Below are positions 12,070 to 35,915 of a stretch of 39,287 bases of DNA, in pieces. Numbering within the stretch: the stretch's first letter is position 1; every line of letters starts with the position of its first letter. The notes beneath the pieces were generated by a model, which was not told the DNA's origin, did not search any database, and saw nothing but the letters and a program-made list of their open reading frames with translations. The stretch is from a bacterium (GTDB lineage Bacteria; Joyebacterota; Joyebacteria; Joyebacterales; Joyebacteraceae). The stretch covers positions 1-39,287 of the forward strand of contig JALGVU010000020.1 in NCBI GenBank assembly GCA_025774545.1, in the 5' to 3' direction. Both the position numbers and the translations under genes were made by a program.

Positions 12070-12975
12070 CTAGCTGCTGGCACGCTCCGAGGCGGCCCCT
12101 TCGTGTCTGATCGTGCACCCGGCATCGATCGGCTCTGCGACGTGTATTAGCCAGTCCCGCCCGGCGAGGCGCGACTCTATGTTGTGCGCGTCCTCCTCCG
12201 TCCTAGCGATTCCCACGACGGTCGATCCGCTGCCACTCATGACCGCCGCCATCGCGCCGGACTCCAGGAGCCGGGCCTTCGCCTGCCCGACCTCCGGGTA
12301 CGATGAAACGACGCCAGCTTCCAGATCGTTTTCGAGTCCCCGAGCCAGGGCTTCGGGGTCGCCATTCTGGATAGCTGAACAGTTGAGTCTAATGAACGGG
12401 CTCCGCCCTGTCAACCTGATTCTCGCTCGCCGGTATGCCTCCCCCGCCGAGACCTCGAAGGGCGGGGTCACGAGGACGAACCAGAGCCCGGCGAGCGGCG
12501 AGAGCCTCTCGAGGATCTCGCCCCGTCCTCGCCCTCGGGACGTTCCCCCTCGGATGAGGAAGGGCACGTCGGAGCCGATCGAGAGCGCGAGGCCCAAGAG
12601 CGCGTGTGCGGGGAGCCCGAGCCCGAAGAGCGCGTCCATCCCGACCAGGACGGCCGCCGCGTCCGCGCTGCCGCCTCCGAGCCCCGCGCCGACGGGAATG
12701 CGCTTCTCGAGGGAGATGGCGGGGCCGCGGCATCCGGACGCCGCGACGATCGCCTCGGCCGCACGAACGGCCAGGTTCGCGGGCCCGCCCGGCACGGGAA
12801 TGCCGCTCGTCTCGAGCGAGATCGTCCCGTCTGGCGACGGCGAGAGCCGCAACGTGTCGGAGAGAGAGATGGTCTGGAAGATGGTGTCGATGTCGTGGTA
12901 GCCGTCGTCCCGCTTCGCGAGGACCTCGAGGCCCAGGTTGACTTTCGCGCGCGCCTCGATCTCGACGGTCCTCAT
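12070..12975 (-). CDS. ispE: 4-diphosphocytidyl-2-C-methyl-D-erythritol kinase
   Basis: IspE phosphorylates CDP-methylerythritol in the MEP route to isoprenoids. This 301-residue GHMP kinase has the N-terminal [20 protein letters not shown], the ATP-binding loop [18 protein letters not shown] (about residues 92-109) and a C-terminal glycine motif [15 protein letters not shown] precedes the ATG at a good spacing. The gene feeds the polyprenyl or geranylgeranyl pool needed by the UbiA-type transferase immediately upstream and by the GGGP synthase further upstream. The length is at the high end of normal. Confidence 0.95.
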
Positions 12976-13026: not shown

Positions 13027-13911
13027 TCAGAAGTAGATGATGGCGGCGGCGACGACGATCCAGAGCACGATGTTGACGGCGAGCGGTGTGTCGGAGACGA
13101 GGGCCTTCGACGGCTTGCCGCCGCCCCCCGCGGCGAACATCAGATAGAGGTAGCGCAGCACGCCGTAGACGACGAACGGCACCGTGTAGACGAGCTCCGG
13201 TCCGCCCACCTTCTCGACGGTTCCCGGCCAGATCGTGTAGATCGCATACGAGACGACGGTCGACGCGGTCACCACCCCGATGAGGGCGTCGACGAGCTCC
13301 GGCGGGTAGTGGCCGAGCGTCGAACGGTGGCGGCGCGCGTCGTCTCCAAGGAGCCGGACCTCGTGGCGCCGCTTGCCGAGTCCGAGGAAGAGCGCCAGGA
13401 AGAACGTGCACACGAGGAGCCACGGCGAGAGCTCCGTCTCGGGGGCCGTCCCGCGGAGGACCTCGACGCTTCCCACCGCTCGCAGGACGAACCCGATCGA
13501 GATTGCCATGACGTCGAGGATGACCATCTTCCTGAGTGCTAAGCTGTAGATGACGTTCAGGGCCAGGTAGGCGACGGCCACGTGTCCGAAGCTCGCGTGG
13601 AGGCTGTAGGCCCACGAGACTCCCGCGCCGGCCAGAACGACGGCGGTCGCGACCGCGACGCCGATGGGAAGATCTCCCGCGGCGAGCGGCCGGAGTCTCT
13701 TCTCCGGGTGGAGGCGATCGCGCGGCATGTCGATGAGGTCGTTCAGAAGGTAGGTCGCGCCGGACAGCATGCAGAACACGACGAACCCCGAGACGGCCAG
13801 CAGGGTCAACTCGCCGTCTCCCATGCCTCCCGCGAAGAGCAGCCCCGCGAAGAGGACCAGGTTCTTGGTCCACTGGTCGGGACGGATCGTCAGAATCAGG
13901 TTTCGGAACAT
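13027..13911 (-). CDS. UbiA-family prenyltransferase, DPPR synthase-like
   Basis: The 294-residue membrane protein has about eight to nine helices and both UbiA aspartate motifs: LLNDLIDMPRDRLHPEKR near residue 55-73, and a second aspartate cluster after GLGKRRHEVRLLGDDAR. The opening IRPDQWTKNLVLFAGLLFAG and RLRPLAAGDL are the pattern of decaprenyl-phosphate phosphoribosyltransferases. These transfer 5-phosphoribose from PRPP to polyprenyl phosphate, the first step to decaprenyl-phosphoryl-arabinose. By that reading it would make a lipid-linked pentose for envelope glycans. It does not resemble DGGGP synthase closely. Uridine kinase follows upstream with a 13-base gap; sugar and isoprenoid genes surround it. 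Substrate assignment is inference. Confidence 0.85.
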   Translation of the reverse strand: MFRNLILTIRPDQWTKNLVLFAGLLFAGGMGDGELTLLAVSGFVVFCMLSGATYLLNDLIDMPRDRLHPEKRLRPLAAGDLPIGVAVATAVVLAGAGVSWAYSLHASFGHVAVAYLALNVIYSLALRKMVILDVMAISIGFVLRAVGSVEVLRGTAPETELSPWLLVCTFFLALFLGLGKRRHEVRLLGDDARRHRSTLGHYPPELVDALIGVVTASTVVSYAIYTIWPGTVEKVGGPELVYTVPFVVYGVLRYLYLMFAAGGGGKPSKALVSDTPLAVNIVLWIVVAAAIIYF

Positions 13912-17158: not shown

Positions 17159-17917
17159 TCACGCGCCGTGCACGGCGTCCGCGAACGCGCGGACGAGACC
17201 TCCGTCCCTCGTGCGTTCGACGACGTCGCCCGTGACGATGAGCTTCGCACCCGCCCTGACGATCCGCGCGGCGGTCTCAGGGTCGCGGATGCCGCCGCCC
17301 ACCATGACCGGGATGTCCACGTAGCCCGCGACCGCTGAAACGATCTCCTCGGGAACCGGCGCCTTCGCCCCGCTCCCCGCGTCGAAGAACGCGATCCGCA
17401 ACCCCAGGTACTGCGCCGCCAGGGCGTGCGCCATCGCGATGTCGGGTTTCGTCCGAGGGATGGGCCTGGTCCCGCTCATGAACTCGACCGAGGTGGTCGC
17501 CCCGCCCTCGACGAGCATGTAGGCCGTCGGGATCGGCTCGAGGCCGATCCGCTTGAGACGCGGCGCCGCCTGGACGTGCTCCCCGATCAGGAACTGCGGA
17601 TTCCTCCCGCTCACGAGCGACAGGAAGAGGATCGCGTCGGCCTCGGGCGCCACGAACCCCACGTTGCCCGGGAAGATGACCACGGGGAGATCGACCTCGC
17701 GTTTGATGGCGGCGATCGTCTCCGAACATCGTCCCTCGAGCGACAGGCTGCCGCCCACCAGGAGAACGTCGACGCCGCCCGCGGCCGCAAGCGCGGCCAG
17801 ATGCACGTTCTCGTCGGGCGTGAGCCGATCGGGATCGAGCAGGACCATGTAGAGCGCCCCCACTCGTCCGATCGTCTCTATCATCCGACGGTAGACCGGT
17901 CCCGTCACGCTCTCCAT
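17159..17917 (-). CDS. Geranylgeranylglyceryl phosphate synthase (group II GGGPS, PcrB-like)
   Basis: The 252-residue TIM barrel joins a polyprenyl diphosphate to glycerol-1-phosphate through an ether bond. Evidence includes the start (ALYMVLLDPDRLTPDE), GGVDVLLVGGSLSLEG, VIFPGNVGFVAPEADAILFL, the group II loop EGGATTSVEFMSGTRPIPRT, then KPDIAMAHALAAQYLG and FDAGSGAKAPVPEEIV, ending with VMVGGGIRDPETAARIVRAGA. These match the group II enzymes of archaea and Bacteroidetes-related bacteria better than Firmicutes PcrB. The ATG at 17917 is chosen by homology. The gene lies 31 bases after alaS. No DGGGP synthase or glycerol-1-phosphate dehydrogenase is in the window. Confidence 0.9.
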   Translation of the reverse strand: MESVTGPVYRRMIETIGRVGALYMVLLDPDRLTPDENVHLAALAAAGGVDVLLVGGSLSLEGRCSETIAAIKREVDLPVVIFPGNVGFVAPEADAILFLSLVSGRNPQFLIGEHVQAAPRLKRIGLEPIPTAYMLVEGGATTSVEFMSGTRPIPRTKPDIAMAHALAAQYLGLRIAFFDAGSGAKAPVPEEIVSAVAGYVDIPVMVGGGIRDPETAARIVRAGAKLIVTGDVVERTRDGGLVRAFADAVHGA

Positions 17918-17948: not shown

Positions 17949-20625
<2,677 letters not shown>

Positions 20626-21341: not shown

Positions 21342-22410
21342 CTACCGTTTCTTCGCGCCGGACCCGACCTTCTCGGGCTCGGAGCTCTTGACCTTCCCCG
21401 ACTCGACGCCCTCGCCTGCCGCCTCCTTCGGGTCTGTCTCGCTCCCGTCAGACGCGTTCTCGCTCGGGGCGTCTCCAGGCGTCGACAGATCGAGAGCCTC
21501 GCGGACGTCCCGCTCGAGACTGTCGCGAACCTCCGCGTTCTCCTCGAGGTAGCTCCTCGTCTTCTCTCTGCCCTGGCCCAGCTGCTTGTCGCCGTAGCTG
21601 AACCACGTGCCCGCCCTCGAACGAGATGCCCTTGCCGTAGATGATGTCGAACTCCGCCTGCCTGAACGGCGGAGCCACCTTGTTCTTCACGACCTTGACC
21701 CTCGTCCGATTCCCCACCATCGTGTCGCCGACCTTCAGGGCCCCGATTCGCCGAATGTCGAGTCGCACGGTCGCGTAGAACTTGAGCGCCCGTCCGCCCG
21801 AGGTTGTCTCAGGGTTCCCGAACATGACGCCGATCTTCATGCGAATCTGATTGATGAAGACGACGCAGGTCTTGGAACGACTGATCGCGCCCGCCAGCTT
21901 CCTGAGCGCCTGCGACATGAGGCGCGCCTGGAGCCCGACGTGGGAATCCCCCATCTCGCCCTCGATCTCGGCGCGAGGGACGAGGGCGGCGACCGAGTCG
22001 ATCACGATCACGTCGACGGCCCCGCTTCTCACGAGCATCTCCGTGATCTCGAGGGCCTGTTCGCCGGTGTCGGGCTGAGAAATCAGGAGGTTGTCGGTGT
22101 CGACGCCGAGGTTCCGCGCGTAGCCGGGATCGAGCGCGTGCTCGGCGTCGATGAACGCCGCCACTCCGCCGAGCCTCTGCGCGTTGGCCGCGATCGAGAG
22201 CGAGAGCGTCGTCTTCCCTGACGCCTCCCCCCTCGGCACGCCTCCGATCCCGAGCGCCAAGTCGAGCGCGAGCGAGCCCGTGGGAATCGCCTCGATACCC
22301 TGACCGACGTCCTGGGTCCCGAGCTTCATGATCGAACCCTTGCCGAACTGCTTCTCGATCTGGGAAACCGCCAGATCCAGGGCCTTCCTCTTCTCCTTCT
22401 CCTGAGTCAT
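21342..22410 (-). pseudogene. recA: Recombinase RecA, disrupted by two deletions
   Basis: The start [20 protein letters not shown] and most of the body are unmistakable RecA, with GGAGG before the ATG. Two lesions are visible. At 22227/22228 the protein reads [15 protein letters not shown]: about eight residues (normally like RVVEIYGP) are missing, so the Walker A motif has lost its first glycine. Around 21612 the frame shifts after FEG. The correct continuation, [20 protein letters not shown], lies in another frame and runs to the TAG at 21344-21342, with about fifteen residues lost at the junction. Without repair the frame gives a nonsense tail ending at 21448. The C-terminus, ending GSGAKKR, is otherwise normal. 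A free-living bacterium rarely lacks RecA, so an assembly error is as likely as true loss. Confidence 0.9.
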
Positions 22411-24264: not shown

Positions 24265-24762
24265 CTACCAGCCTCGAACGTGCAGCATCAGTCTGACGAG
24301 GATGTTCGCGTAGACGCCGGCCACAAGGTCGTCGAGCACGATCCCGAGTCCACCCCTCACCGACTCAGCGCGGCCGGCCGGGAACGGCTTCAGGATGTCG
24401 ATGGCTCGGAAGAGCAGAAAGGCGGCGACGAACACGAAGATCGACTTGGGAAGAAAGAGGACGGAGAGGATGAACCCGCTCCACTCGTCGATCACGATCT
24501 TGGAGGCGTCCTTCCCGAAGGTCTTCTCGGCGACGTCGGCGGCCCAGATGGACATGGCCACGAAGGCGGCGACCGTGATCAGGGTGACGGCGATCGTCCC
24601 CGGGGGACTTGCGAGCGTGACCTCGGGGGCGAGGAACCACACGACGACGGCGCAGCCGAACGCGCCGACGGTCCCCGGCGCCACCGGCGCGTATCCGAGG
24701 TAGCCTCCGGTCGCGAGAAGCCTGGCGATCGGGTGAAGCCCGCGCGAGGACGGCTCGGCCAT
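24265..24762 (-). CDS. pgpA: Phosphatidylglycerophosphatase A
   Basis: PgpA removes the phosphate from phosphatidylglycerol phosphate. The 165-residue membrane protein has about four helices and the family motifs GGYLGYAPVAPGTVGAFG, KIVIDEWSGFILSVLFLPKS, FRAIDILKPFPAGRAES and GGLGIVLDDLVAGVYAN; the acidic residues of the latter form the active site. The ATG at 24762 has AAGGGGG upstream and comes right after the pgsA stop. The pgsA-pgpA pair makes phosphatidylglycerol in two consecutive steps, a functional operon. cinA follows after 25 bases. Confidence 0.92.
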   Translation of the reverse strand: MAEPSSRGLHPIARLLATGGYLGYAPVAPGTVGAFGCAVVVWFLAPEVTLASPPGTIAVTLITVAAFVAMSIWAADVAEKTFGKDASKIVIDEWSGFILSVLFLPKSIFVFVAAFLLFRAIDILKPFPAGRAESVRGGLGIVLDDLVAGVYANILVRLMLHVRGW

Positions 24763-24766
24763 CTGT

Positions 24767-25372
24767 CTAGCCCCCTTCCCGGAGGTCGCGCTCGGGTGGC
24801 GCCTCGCCCGACCGGGCGAAGCTGCGGCCATTGAGAAGGTACTCCGCGCCCGAGACGAGCGTCAGAACGACCGCGGCGGTGCCCAGAACCCAGAGGAATC
24901 GCTCGACTCCGGCGGATCCCGGCGACGAGAACGACGGGGCCGCGCGCGAGACGATGGTGAGGTAGAGAAGAACCGTGGCGAGCCACGCCATCTGAGCGGC
25001 CGTCTTCCACTTGGCGATGCGGCTCGTGACGAAGCCCTCGCCGCTCTTGAAGGCGCCGGTGCGGCAGCCCAGGATGAGGAGCTCGCGCCCGACGATCGCC
25101 GCGACCATCCAAAGCGGAACGTAGGTCAGACCGAGAAAGAGAAAGCCGACGAGGACCAGCGACACGAGGACCTTGTCGGCCAGGGGATCCATCAGCTTCC
25201 CGAACTCGGTGACGTTGTCGGAGAGACGCGCGAGGTAACCGTCGTAGAGATCCGTCAGCATGGCGACCACAAAGAGGTAGAAGGCGAGCCTCACGGCCCC
25301 CGCGATGAGGCACGCGAGCACCACGGGCCCCAGGATCATTCGCCCGACGGTCAGTCCGTTCGGCCAGTTCAT
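24767..25372 (-). CDS. pgsA: CDP-diacylglycerol-glycerol-3-phosphate 3-phosphatidyltransferase
   Basis: The 201-residue membrane enzyme makes phosphatidylglycerol phosphate. The CDP-alcohol phosphotransferase signature is complete: LYDGYLARLSDNVTEFGKLM followed by DPLADK, giving DGxxAR...GxxxDxxxD. About five to six helices flank it. The N-terminus MNWPNGLTVGRMILGP is typical of PgsA. The conserved pair GRELLI and FVTSRIAKWKTAAQM further supports it. It starts 48 bases after porB, so it may share the por transcript, and runs straight into pgpA. Confidence 0.94.
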   Translation of the reverse strand: MNWPNGLTVGRMILGPVVLACLIAGAVRLAFYLFVVAMLTDLYDGYLARLSDNVTEFGKLMDPLADKVLVSLVLVGFLFLGLTYVPLWMVAAIVGRELLILGCRTGAFKSGEGFVTSRIAKWKTAAQMAWLATVLLYLTIVSRAAPSFSSPGSAGVERFLWVLGTAAVVLTLVSGAEYLLNGRSFARSGEAPPERDLREGG

Positions 25373-33805: not shown

Positions 33806-35915
33806 CTACGCCCCTCTGCTTTCGTGAAGCCGTGCCTCGGCGCCGGCGTGCGGAAGCCGAACCGTGAACACCGATCCCTCACCCGGCTGGCTCTCGACCT
33901 CGATCTGTCCGCCGTGGTCCTTGACGATGCCGTAGCTGACCGCGAGCCCAAGCCCGCTACCGTCTCCGGTGTCGTGCGTCGTGAAGAAGGGCTCGAAGAC
34001 CCTGCCGAGATCCTCCGCGGAAATGCCGCAGCCGCTGTCGGTGAAGACGATCTCGACGCTCGCGTTGCCCCGGGCGTCGACCGCCCTTGCGGCGCAGATC
34101 GTCAGCGTCCCTCCGCTCGGCATCGCGTCGCGGGCGTTCAGGATGATGTTCGCGAACACCTGCCGCAGCTGATACTGGTCGCCCGTGACCTCCGGCAGGG
34201 CCTCGTCGACACGCTGCTCGAGTTTGATGCCCCTCATCCCGAGCTGGTGCTCCGTGATGTGGATCGCTTCGACGAGGACGTCGCTCACGCTGATCTCGGT
34301 GAACGAGCCCTGCGACGACCGAGAGAACGTCAGAAGGCTCTGGACGATGCTGCGGCACCGCTGCGACGCCTGCTCGATCGAGCCCAGGTGCTTGACGAGC
34401 TTCTCGACCTCCTCGGGGCTCAGTCCGCCCTTGCCCCTCGAGATGATCCGCTCGAGATCGTACTGCGCGTATCCCAGAATCCCGCCGAGCGGGTTGTTGA
34501 GCTCGTGCGCCACCCCGGCGGCCAGCTCGCCGACCGCCGCGAGTCGTCCGGACTGAACGACCTTCTCCTGCATCCTCTGGAGGTCGCGGGTTCTCTCCTC
34601 GACACGCTGTTCCAGATCCTGATTCAGTGCCTCGAGGTCGGCCCGGGCCTTCTGCAGCTCGGCCGTTCGTTCCTCCACCTTCTGCTCCAGGGTCTTGCCC
34701 CAGCTTTCCACCTTCGTCTTCGCCTCGTCGACGTTCTCGTAGAGCCGCGCGTTCTCGAGCGCGTGCGCGACCTGGCCGCCGATGGTGACGAGGAGTTCGA
34801 CGTCCTGCTCCCCGAACGCCTTCGGCTCGCGGCTCTCGATCGCGAGCACCCCGACCAGCCTGTCGCGCGCGAGCAGGGGGATTCCGGCCCACGCGCGCGG
34901 CTCGACTCCTCTCGACTTCGCCATGCTTGCGAGCCGGCTGTCGAGCTCGCGCGTCTCCGTCTCGTCGGCGATGTCGGCGACGAGCAGTGTCTCGCGGTGC
35001 GCGATGACCCACCCGGCGAAGGTGTTGCCGGGCTTGCTGCGCCGGTGCGCGATGACCCACCCGGCGAAGGTGTTGCCGGGCTTGCTGCGCCACGCCGGGA
35101 TGCGCTTCGTCCCCTCGATGCAGACCCGGTAGTCCAGGTCGCCCTTCTCCTCGTCGTAGAGGCAGACCGTGACCATGGTCGAGCCGAAGAGCTCGCGCGT
35201 GCTCTCCTCGAGACGCACAACCAGTTCGTCGAGTCTGAGCGTCGAGGAGACGGCCTGCGCCGTGGCGTTGATCGTGTCGAGGTCGCGGACGTGGCGCTCG
35301 AGTGTCTGTTTCGTGCTCCAGAGCGTCTTGCCGGCGGCGCTCGAGACGAGCAGCACGACCACAAGGAGCGGGAACGTCGCAGAGCCGCTCGGCATGTACG
35401 CGGCCGCAAGCAGGAGCGACAGTGGCAGAAGCGCGATCTCCACGACGACCCCGCGTCCCTTGAGCCACCGAGCGTAGCCGCCGACCGTCTTCCGGCGCTC
35501 CGACGCCATGATCCAGTGCGCCACGACGCCGGCCGCGCTGTAGGTTCCGAACATCCCGAGGAAGCGGAGCGCGTCGGCCAAAGTGAGGTCGCCGCTGAGC
35601 GGCAGCCCACCGGTCAGGACGTAGAACGTGCCCGCGGCGAAGACCGCGAGCACCTGCGTGCTGACCTCGACGACCGCCCGCCGGCTCATCCCCTTGAAGC
35701 AGGTGAACTCTCTTCTTGCCTATCGGAAACGCGAAGAGCCCGGTCGCCAGACCGAGCGCGCTCATGATGCCGATCGCGCCCCAGTCCATCCAGTCCGTCT
35801 GGAGCACCGCGAGCGCCAGGAAGAGCGCGGCCGCCGCCGCGCCCCGGATCCAAGCCCGGCCGCCGGCCGGGCGCTCGCAGACCGTCTGATTCCTCGCCAA
35901 TTCCTGGGCGTGCAT
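33806..35915 (-). CDS. Membrane GAF-histidine kinase, frameshifted near the N-terminus
   Basis: Two frames together make one kinase. The first runs from ATG 35915 (MHAQELARNQTV) through two hydrophobic helices to GLFAFPIGKK. Near 35707-35716, in an AG-rich run, the frame changes; the second frame continues EFTCFKGMSRRAVVEVSTQ with four more membrane helices. A GAF domain (about LDTINATAQAVSSTLRLDEL to HALENARLY) and a coiled coil follow. HisKA has LAAVGELAAGVAHELNNPLG with the phosphorylated His, and HATPase has IILNARDAM, DSGCGISAEDLG and GSGLGLAVSYGIV. The intact part ends at 33806 and starts at an internal ATG at 35689. A perfect 48-bp duplication lies in the GAF part. It is preceded by a sigma-54 promoter, and the GGDEF regulator follows. 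Confidence 0.85.
34995..35090. repeat. Perfect 48-bp tandem duplication in the GAF domain
   Basis: Copies 34995-35042 and 35043-35090 are identical. In the kinase they encode RSKPGNTFAGWVIAHR twice in a row. GAF domains normally have this strand-helix segment once (WR-SKPGNTFAGWVIAHRET). The duplication is in frame, so the kinase remains open. Identity implies a recent event or an assembly or read artefact. Confidence 0.95.

Follow-up and report, generated by a model that had tools for sequence, protein, structure and literature searches.

The closest described system is the pathway of Ca. Cloacimonetes (Villanueva et al., PMC7852524), in which a geranylgeranylglyceryl phosphate synthase (GGGPS), a UbiA-type DGGGPS and a geranylgeranyl reductase are reported alongside bacterial lipid genes, and for which the gene set described there includes neither egsA/araM nor CarS. 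Joint production of the Cloacimonetes GGGPS and DGGGPS in engineered E. coli gave an archaeal-type lipid (PMC7852524). In the survey reported in PMC6431249, GGGPS and DGGGPS were present in 12 of 12 FCB phyla and glycerol-1-phosphate dehydrogenase (G1PDH) was given as missing in 10 of them, as it was in the four MAGs described in PMC7852524; therefore, G1PDH does not define the FCB version of the pathway. For the GGGPS enzyme itself, two tyrosines and one glutamate (Af Y124, Y165 and E167) are called strictly conserved and are proposed to be responsible for stereospecificity and catalysis in both groups I and II; in this account, the glutamate polarises the acceptor hydroxyl and the tyrosines aid the selection of glycerol phosphate (PMC9385802).

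The genome studied here has the Cloacimonetes gene set in common, with no egsA/araM and no CarS found. In contrast to the Cloacimonetes system, where GGGPS and DGGGPS are co-localised and their activity was tested (PMC7852524), the two genes lie on separate contigs here, and GGGPS stands behind alaS. In addition, the Cloacimonadota sequences L029 and L036 keep the tyrosine and the glutamate, whereas the GGGPS described here has phenylalanine and aspartate. The pathway is thus an already published FCB gene set without G1PDH, of which we report a new instance. No open-licence paper pairing Eisenbacteria with GGGP was found, and in the main text of the phylum paper (PMC11323493) the words "lipid" and "geranylgeranyl" have 0 occurrences.

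The window, by which we mean the whole analysed stretch of 39,287 nucleotides, comes from a draft genome of 4.1 Mb in 512 contigs with an estimated contamination of 4.74% (features in Table 1). An earlier note on this DNA had proposed an archaeal-type ether-lipid enzyme in a bacterium from the GGGPS loop EGGATTSVEFMSGTRPIP and the motif FDAGSGA. Both are contained in the protein, which also passes the NCBIfam models NF003198 (286.9 bits, cut-off 247) and TIGR01769 for GGGP (210.1 bits, cut-off 161.55) as well as PF01884 (147.7 bits, cut-off 23.9), a family with no other match in the draft genome. The narrower equivalog models NF003202 (184.7 of 353 bits) and NF003201 (181.4 of 388 bits) were not reached, and the heptaprenyl PcrB model NF003197 gave 24.5 bits against a cut-off of 260. 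The assignment to the family is far beyond chance. Across nine hand-picked pairs, dN/dS was 0.06-0.26 (dS was near 1 in two of the pairs), which shows that GGGPS is under purifying selection.

Table 1. Coordinates of the features discussed, as positions in the window
Feature	Position	Strand	Evidence or remark
GGGPS, group II (bacterial) geranylgeranylglyceryl phosphate synthase homologue, 252 aa	17159..17917	-	ATG at 17917, stop at 17159; NCBIfam, PDB homologues, alignments, tree, AlphaFold2, Foldseek
alaS, immediately upstream of GGGPS; conserved neighbour, thought to be outside the pathway	17949..20621	-	match <=1.2 kb upstream of GGGPS in 32/48 related loci
pgsA-like CDP-alcohol phosphatidyltransferase, candidate for the head-group step	24767..25372	-	PF01066 119.3 bits; TIGR00560 108.9 bits, just below cut-off 109.1
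pgpA, phosphatidylglycerophosphatase A	24265..24762	-	PF04608 124.3 bits
ispE-like GHMP kinase, MEP isoprenoid pathway	12070..12975	-	PF00288/PF08544; name from sequence
UbiA-family decaprenyl-phosphate phosphoribosyltransferase homologue, not DGGGPS	13027..13911	-	NF008977 250.9 bits, cut-off 234

The AlphaFold2 model of the protein had a pLDDT of 92.2 and a pTM of 0.91, and in a Foldseek search against the PDB the top 27 matches were all GGGPS chains, with TM scores of 0.78-0.92 by query length. The model indicates that the window protein is a group II GGGPS homologue with the modified TIM barrel of the GGGPS type. Compared with the group II structures of Methanothermobacter (4mm1), Flavobacterium (4jej) and Thermoplasma volcanium (6nke), it has the same fold (TM 0.89-0.90 for 4mm1_A/C, 4jej and 6nke) and shares the metal-site Asp28, the first tyrosine (Tyr133), the phosphate-loop glycines and the aromatic hexamer anchor (Phe146), but it differs by Tyr to Phe177, Glu to Asp179 and Thr/Ser to Asp231. 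The Firmicutes heptaprenylglyceryl phosphate synthase PcrB belongs to the same superfamily and has the same TIM barrel (TM 0.72-0.79), but it is only 17-22% identical by Foldseek and keeps the tyrosine and the glutamate in 3 of 3 sequences. MoeO5 of the moenomycin pathway, a related TIM-barrel prenyltransferase using farnesyl diphosphate and 3-phosphoglycerate (PMC9385802), reached TM 0.81-0.82 at 18-19% identity. We consider that the window protein is probably an active TIM-barrel prenyltransferase, with which an archaeal-type route to diether phospholipids would begin at its first committed step, alongside bacterial phospholipid genes.

The conserved Tyr/Tyr/Glu set is only partly kept in the window GGGPS: Y133 is retained, but F177 and D179 occupy the positions of the second tyrosine and the glutamate, so that an FxD within FFDAGSGA stands where the catalytic YxE is reported, and D231 lies in the phosphate loop. 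We counted residues in an alignment of 57 rows, comprising 17 from the phylum (sampled as 20 genomes including the window's, from one family and eight genera), L028, 33 other FCB-type sequences, two archaea, Flavobacterium and three PcrB. All 17 phylum rows and L028 had Phe at position 177, and all 39 rows outside the lineage had Tyr (33/33 other FCB-type, 2/2 archaea, Flavobacterium and 3/3 PcrB). The same 18 sequences had Asp at position 179; the other FCB rows had Glu in 25 and Asp in 8, and the remaining six rows had Glu. At position 231, the phylum had Asp in 16 rows and Glu in one, L028 had Asn, PcrB had Asn in two and Asp in one, and Asn, Thr or Ser was found in the other FCB rows, the archaea and Flavobacterium. 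Position 133 was Tyr in every row except one other FCB row (Leu). Eight of the 33 other FCB rows have Asp for the glutamate and one has Leu for the first tyrosine, so that even there "strictly conserved" overstates the case. A second fetch agreed with these counts, but it covered 16 of the 17 phylum sequences already used and so is not independent. The residue between the pair, position 178, varies in the phylum (Phe in 13, Met in 4), and thus positions 177 and 179 are held fixed rather than decaying. Taken together, these results show a lineage-wide change of Tyr to Phe and Glu to Asp at the acceptor site of GGGPS. With regard to numbering, Y134/Y178/E180 are labelled as Methanothermobacter residues in PMC9385802, whereas the chain positions fit Flavobacterium 4jej instead; by hand count, the same residues in 4mm1 are numbered 130/172/174.

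Because two of the three supposedly strictly conserved residues are changed, the activity of the homologues cannot be transferred to the window GGGPS. Asp179 could still act on the acceptor from a slightly greater distance, and Phe177 would cost one hydroxyl contact to it. Judged from these residues, we would expect the enzyme to be active, possibly with a relaxed or changed choice of acceptor. We call the system a variant of the known pathway because the lineage-specific FxD site departs from the conserved residues, and this altered acceptor site, with Phe177 and Asp179 across the lineage, is what looks new in the sequences; it is the most unusual feature of the protein, and the earlier note does not mention it.

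The search for G1PDH (EgsA/AraM) gave no PF13685 match in the window's genome, whereas the same search was positive in 13 of 14 reference genomes. Among the 15 of the 20 phylum genomes that were searched (G000-G014), the one match, in G001, is AroB, as is the match in the genome of L028 (G015), and no G1PDH was found. Across a set of 45 genomes, PF13685 matched in 29 and exceeded the cut-off in 24. Seven of the hits were scanned further; two were AroB, and five had the G1PDH model NF002022 as their best model, all below its cut-off. Likely G1PDH genes (L106-L110, all below the curated cut-off) were observed in the genomes of L048, L042, L041, L021 and L044.

The altered site and the missing G1PDH are also what an alternative would rest on, in which the acceptor has changed with the Phe177/Asp179/Asp231 pocket to sn-glycerol-3-phosphate (G3P), or to another phosphorylated three-carbon compound as in MoeO5, so that no G1P would be needed. 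It would agree with the fixed Phe177 and Asp179, with an acidic residue at position 231 in all 17 phylum rows, with the absence of a G1PDH match from the searched phylum genomes, with the fold likeness to MoeO5, with the proposal that ties these positions to stereospecificity (PMC9385802), and with reports that other GGGPS use G3P (PMC7852524, PMC9385802). However, both substitutions are conservative, and Phe177 needed only one change on a quick tree built without the three columns (position 179 needed six and position 231 fifteen), so that it is a single event on that tree. Phe/Asp also failed as a marker of G1PDH loss: the genomes of L043 and L046, the only two outside this lineage that gave no PF13685 match, keep Tyr and Glu, and the genome of L041 has a likely G1PDH yet Asp at the glutamate position. 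Therefore, these residues do not track the loss of G1PDH. Furthermore, E. coli is reported to obtain G1P without araM (PMC7852524), and PlsY and PlsC of E. coli and B. subtilis are reported to accept both enantiomers (PMC13400652), and thus G1P is not barred from bacterial lipids either. We regard a changed acceptor as unlikely, although it is the strongest of the alternatives, and the fuller version, in which the phylum has rebuilt the GGGPS pocket for G3P or another bacterial metabolite and makes isoprenoid diethers with bacterial glycerol stereochemistry, as slightly less likely still.

The earlier note had suggested a search of the genome for partner genes. The UbiA-family protein in the window was ruled out as the partner DGGGPS, as it passes the model for decaprenyl-phosphate phosphoribosyltransferase; this homologue lies among udk, gmhA and rfb genes in a non-actinobacterial lineage. 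The genome has seven UbiA-family matches, six of them above the Pfam cut-off and the seventh (L056) below it, and the one on contig C83 (L050) is a DGGGPS homologue. Its best NCBIfam model is the prenyltransferase PRK12884 (194 of 269 bits), followed by the GGGP geranylgeranyltransferase PRK12882 (179 of 296 bits), both below the equivalog cut-off. Its best match among solved structures is the DGGGPS 6m31 (1.1e-33, 120 bits), which we take to be the Methanocaldococcus enzyme, with both Asp-rich motifs aligned, compared to 28 bits for the next best, chlorophyll a synthase. A separate MenA-like UbiA protein is also present, below the cut-off. Another UbiA domain was observed on contig C301 (L051), joined with TPR repeats in an open frame of 881 aa, and weak UbiA matches recur in related genomes, in frames roughly 540-914 aa long.

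Three proteins of the genome exceed the cut-off of the reductase model TIGR02032. One of them, on contig C465 (L060), has the DGGGPL-reductase NF041080 as its best family (240 of 580 bits, below the cut-off) and matches the "Conserved Archaeal protein" structures 4opu/3atq, presumably Sulfolobus geranylgeranyl reductase, at 1e-44; it keeps the Cys of KxCG, which we take to have an active-site role in that enzyme. Both prenyl-diphosphate synthases of the genome pass the FPPS subfamily model, one of them with dxs beside it, and both fall short of the cut-off of the CrtE GGPPS model (353 and 282 of 460 bits). Thus, of the partners named in the earlier note, a DGGGPS homologue was found but G1PDH was not, and the two prenyl-diphosphate synthases did not reach the GGPPS cut-off. 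CdsA is present (CTP_transf_1 200 bits versus CarS-like 22.6 bits). The sole match to the CarS model (23.9 bits, cut-off 22) was rejected as CarS, being a CdsA-type protein, and CdsA is reported to be able to stand in for CarS (PMC7852524). GGGPS, the DGGGPS homologue and the reductase are each on a separate contig.

Based on these homologies, the best reading is a diether pathway of the archaeal type, in which the first enzyme appears to have a lineage-specific acceptor pocket. GGGPS would link a C20 prenyl chain to glycerol phosphate through an ether bond, and the DGGGPS homologue would add a second chain to this product. CdsA and then PgsA/PgpA would activate the diether and add the head group, and the archaeal-type reductase on C465 would saturate the chains. 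In this scheme, the activity of the enzyme, its C20 donor, the sequence of steps and a role in the membrane are all inferred.

Across the 20 phylum genomes, GGGPS was found in 17, DGGGPS (at least 176 bits) in 18, the reductase (at least 208 bits) in 20 and all three in 16, so the three genes do not always occur together. In G054 (97% complete), DGGGPS and the reductase were matched but GGGPS was not, and in G061 (90% complete), GGGPS and the reductase were matched but DGGGPS was not. G059 and G062 (73% and 57% complete) gave no GGGPS match, and the DGGGPS match in G062 was just 17.7 bits. The genome of L028, with the same Phe/Asp site, gave no match to a C465-type reductase. The DGGGPS homologue (C83, L068:7053-8868) adjoins the undecaprenyl-diphosphatase gene uppP, an adjacency found in 23 of 34 loci examined, namely 18 of 18 phylum loci and five others (genomes of L028, L037, L041, L042 and L048). 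This adjacency, the scores of DGGGPS and reductase below their equivalog cut-offs and the gene content of G061 would fit a second alternative, in which GGGPS makes a single-chain prenylglycerol derivative in small amounts, like PcrB in Bacillales, and the UbiA protein and the reductase serve polyprenol or quinone metabolism. We find this doubtful, since the best solved match of the C83 protein is DGGGPS by a wide difference in bits, the C465 reductase most resembles those of archaeal lipid synthesis, and the separate MenA-like protein exists, albeit below the cut-off.

In a third alternative, very unlikely in our view, GGGPS runs in reverse or scavenges, degrading archaeal lipids from the environment. 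The idea has been raised for FCB bacteria without G1PDH (PMC6431249), and it would suit both the negative G1PDH search in the window's genome and a phylum reported mainly from seeps (PMC11323493). Archaeal lipid is plentiful in such places. However, ether formation with release of diphosphate should strongly favour the forward direction, and the homologous Cloacimonetes pair went forwards in E. coli (PMC7852524).

The inheritance of GGGPS was examined with a tree of the 57 rows (IQ-TREE, LG+C20+F+G4), in which archaea were represented by two rows only, both group II; IQ-TREE gave a long-branch warning. The 52 bacterial rows, Flavobacterium among them, form one clade (support 97/86) separate from the two archaeal rows, and the longest branch of the tree, with length 5 to either side of the root, sets off the three PcrB rows. 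The window's GGGPS falls inside a clade of the 17 phylum rows (100/95). Its nearest relatives come from MAGs that carry the labels bacterium, Candidatus Eisenbacteria and Candidatus Effluviviaceae. The earlier note had named grouping with Firmicutes PcrB and a lack of partner genes as evidence against its proposal. Instead, the protein lies in an FCB bacterial clade, on the side of the archaeal group II enzymes and far from PcrB, and partner homologues are in the genome, which upholds the proposal. L028 ("Eisenbacteria") adjoins the phylum clade at 92/81 in the full tree, but the SH-aLRT of this grouping falls to 3 in the quick tree without columns 177, 179 and 231, and therefore Phe/Asp may have arisen twice, once in L028 and once in the phylum. 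A plasmid search for further GGGPS relatives gave 11 weak matches, and of the eight that were annotated, one was PcrB and seven were HisA-type.

GGGPS lies in the block porDAB-pgsA-pgpA-cinA-thpR-recA-recX-alaS-GGGPS-NTP transferase-rfbD-gmhA-udk-UbiA-ispE-spoVG-prs-rplY-pth-hppA, and the gene order is identical in 14 related phylum loci up to the contig ends. The ispE, pgsA and pgpA genes named in the earlier note were all found, and they are indeed nearby, but in a block made up mostly of housekeeping genes such closeness says little by itself. Where alaS lies upstream of GGGPS, it is within 350 bases in 29 loci, and 18 of the 32 loci are outside the phylum, in KSB1, Edwardsbacteria, Gemmatimonadetes-labelled, Stahlbacteria and Bacteroidetes MAGs and others, including one of two assessable loci each in Latescibacterota and WOR-3. 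It is absent in 13 of the 48 loci, and 3 were not assessable; assessable loci without it come from Poribacteria (5), Marinimicrobia (3), Cloacimonadota (2) and Calditrichaeota (1). This pattern argues for GGGPS having been long inherited in place, as opposed to a recent transfer. A binning error that brought in the gene from an archaeon or another bacterium, as a contaminated draft in many contigs might allow, is hardly credible given the shared order of the housekeeping block and the place of GGGPS within the phylum clade.

As a gene-order link, alaS-GGGPS is deep, and its functional reason is not obvious; in the open-licence literature, GGGP synthase was never named among the matches listed for this link. 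Two oddities were seen elsewhere in the window. In recA (21448-22410), compared by eye with the usual RecA, some residues before Walker A are apparently missing and the C-terminal part looks frame-shifted, which may reflect an error of assembly or sequencing. In the histidine kinase gene (33806-35689), a 16-residue repeat, RSKPGNTFAGWVIAHR, occurs twice in tandem and in frame, perhaps a local assembly artefact.

The question of archaeal lipid synthesis in FCB bacteria, and of the glycerol enantiomer that such lipids would carry, bears directly on the lipid divide. Here, a phylum-level group has most of the pathway homologues, no G1PDH detected in the searched genomes, and substitutions at the positions proposed to determine stereospecificity. 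One small soluble enzyme would make the question of the glycerol enantiomer testable, and this group would be a good test case for archaeal lipid synthesis in bacteria. If G3P were indeed the acceptor, the product would be a natural lipid that decouples chain type from backbone chirality, which would account for G1PDH being needless. The window's genome probably falls in Ca. Effluviviacota, a seep phylum whose reported share of the gene catalogue from cold seeps is about 1% (PMC11323493). Should these bacteria make the lipid, archaeol-type compounds in the sediments of seeps would not be a purely archaeal signal.
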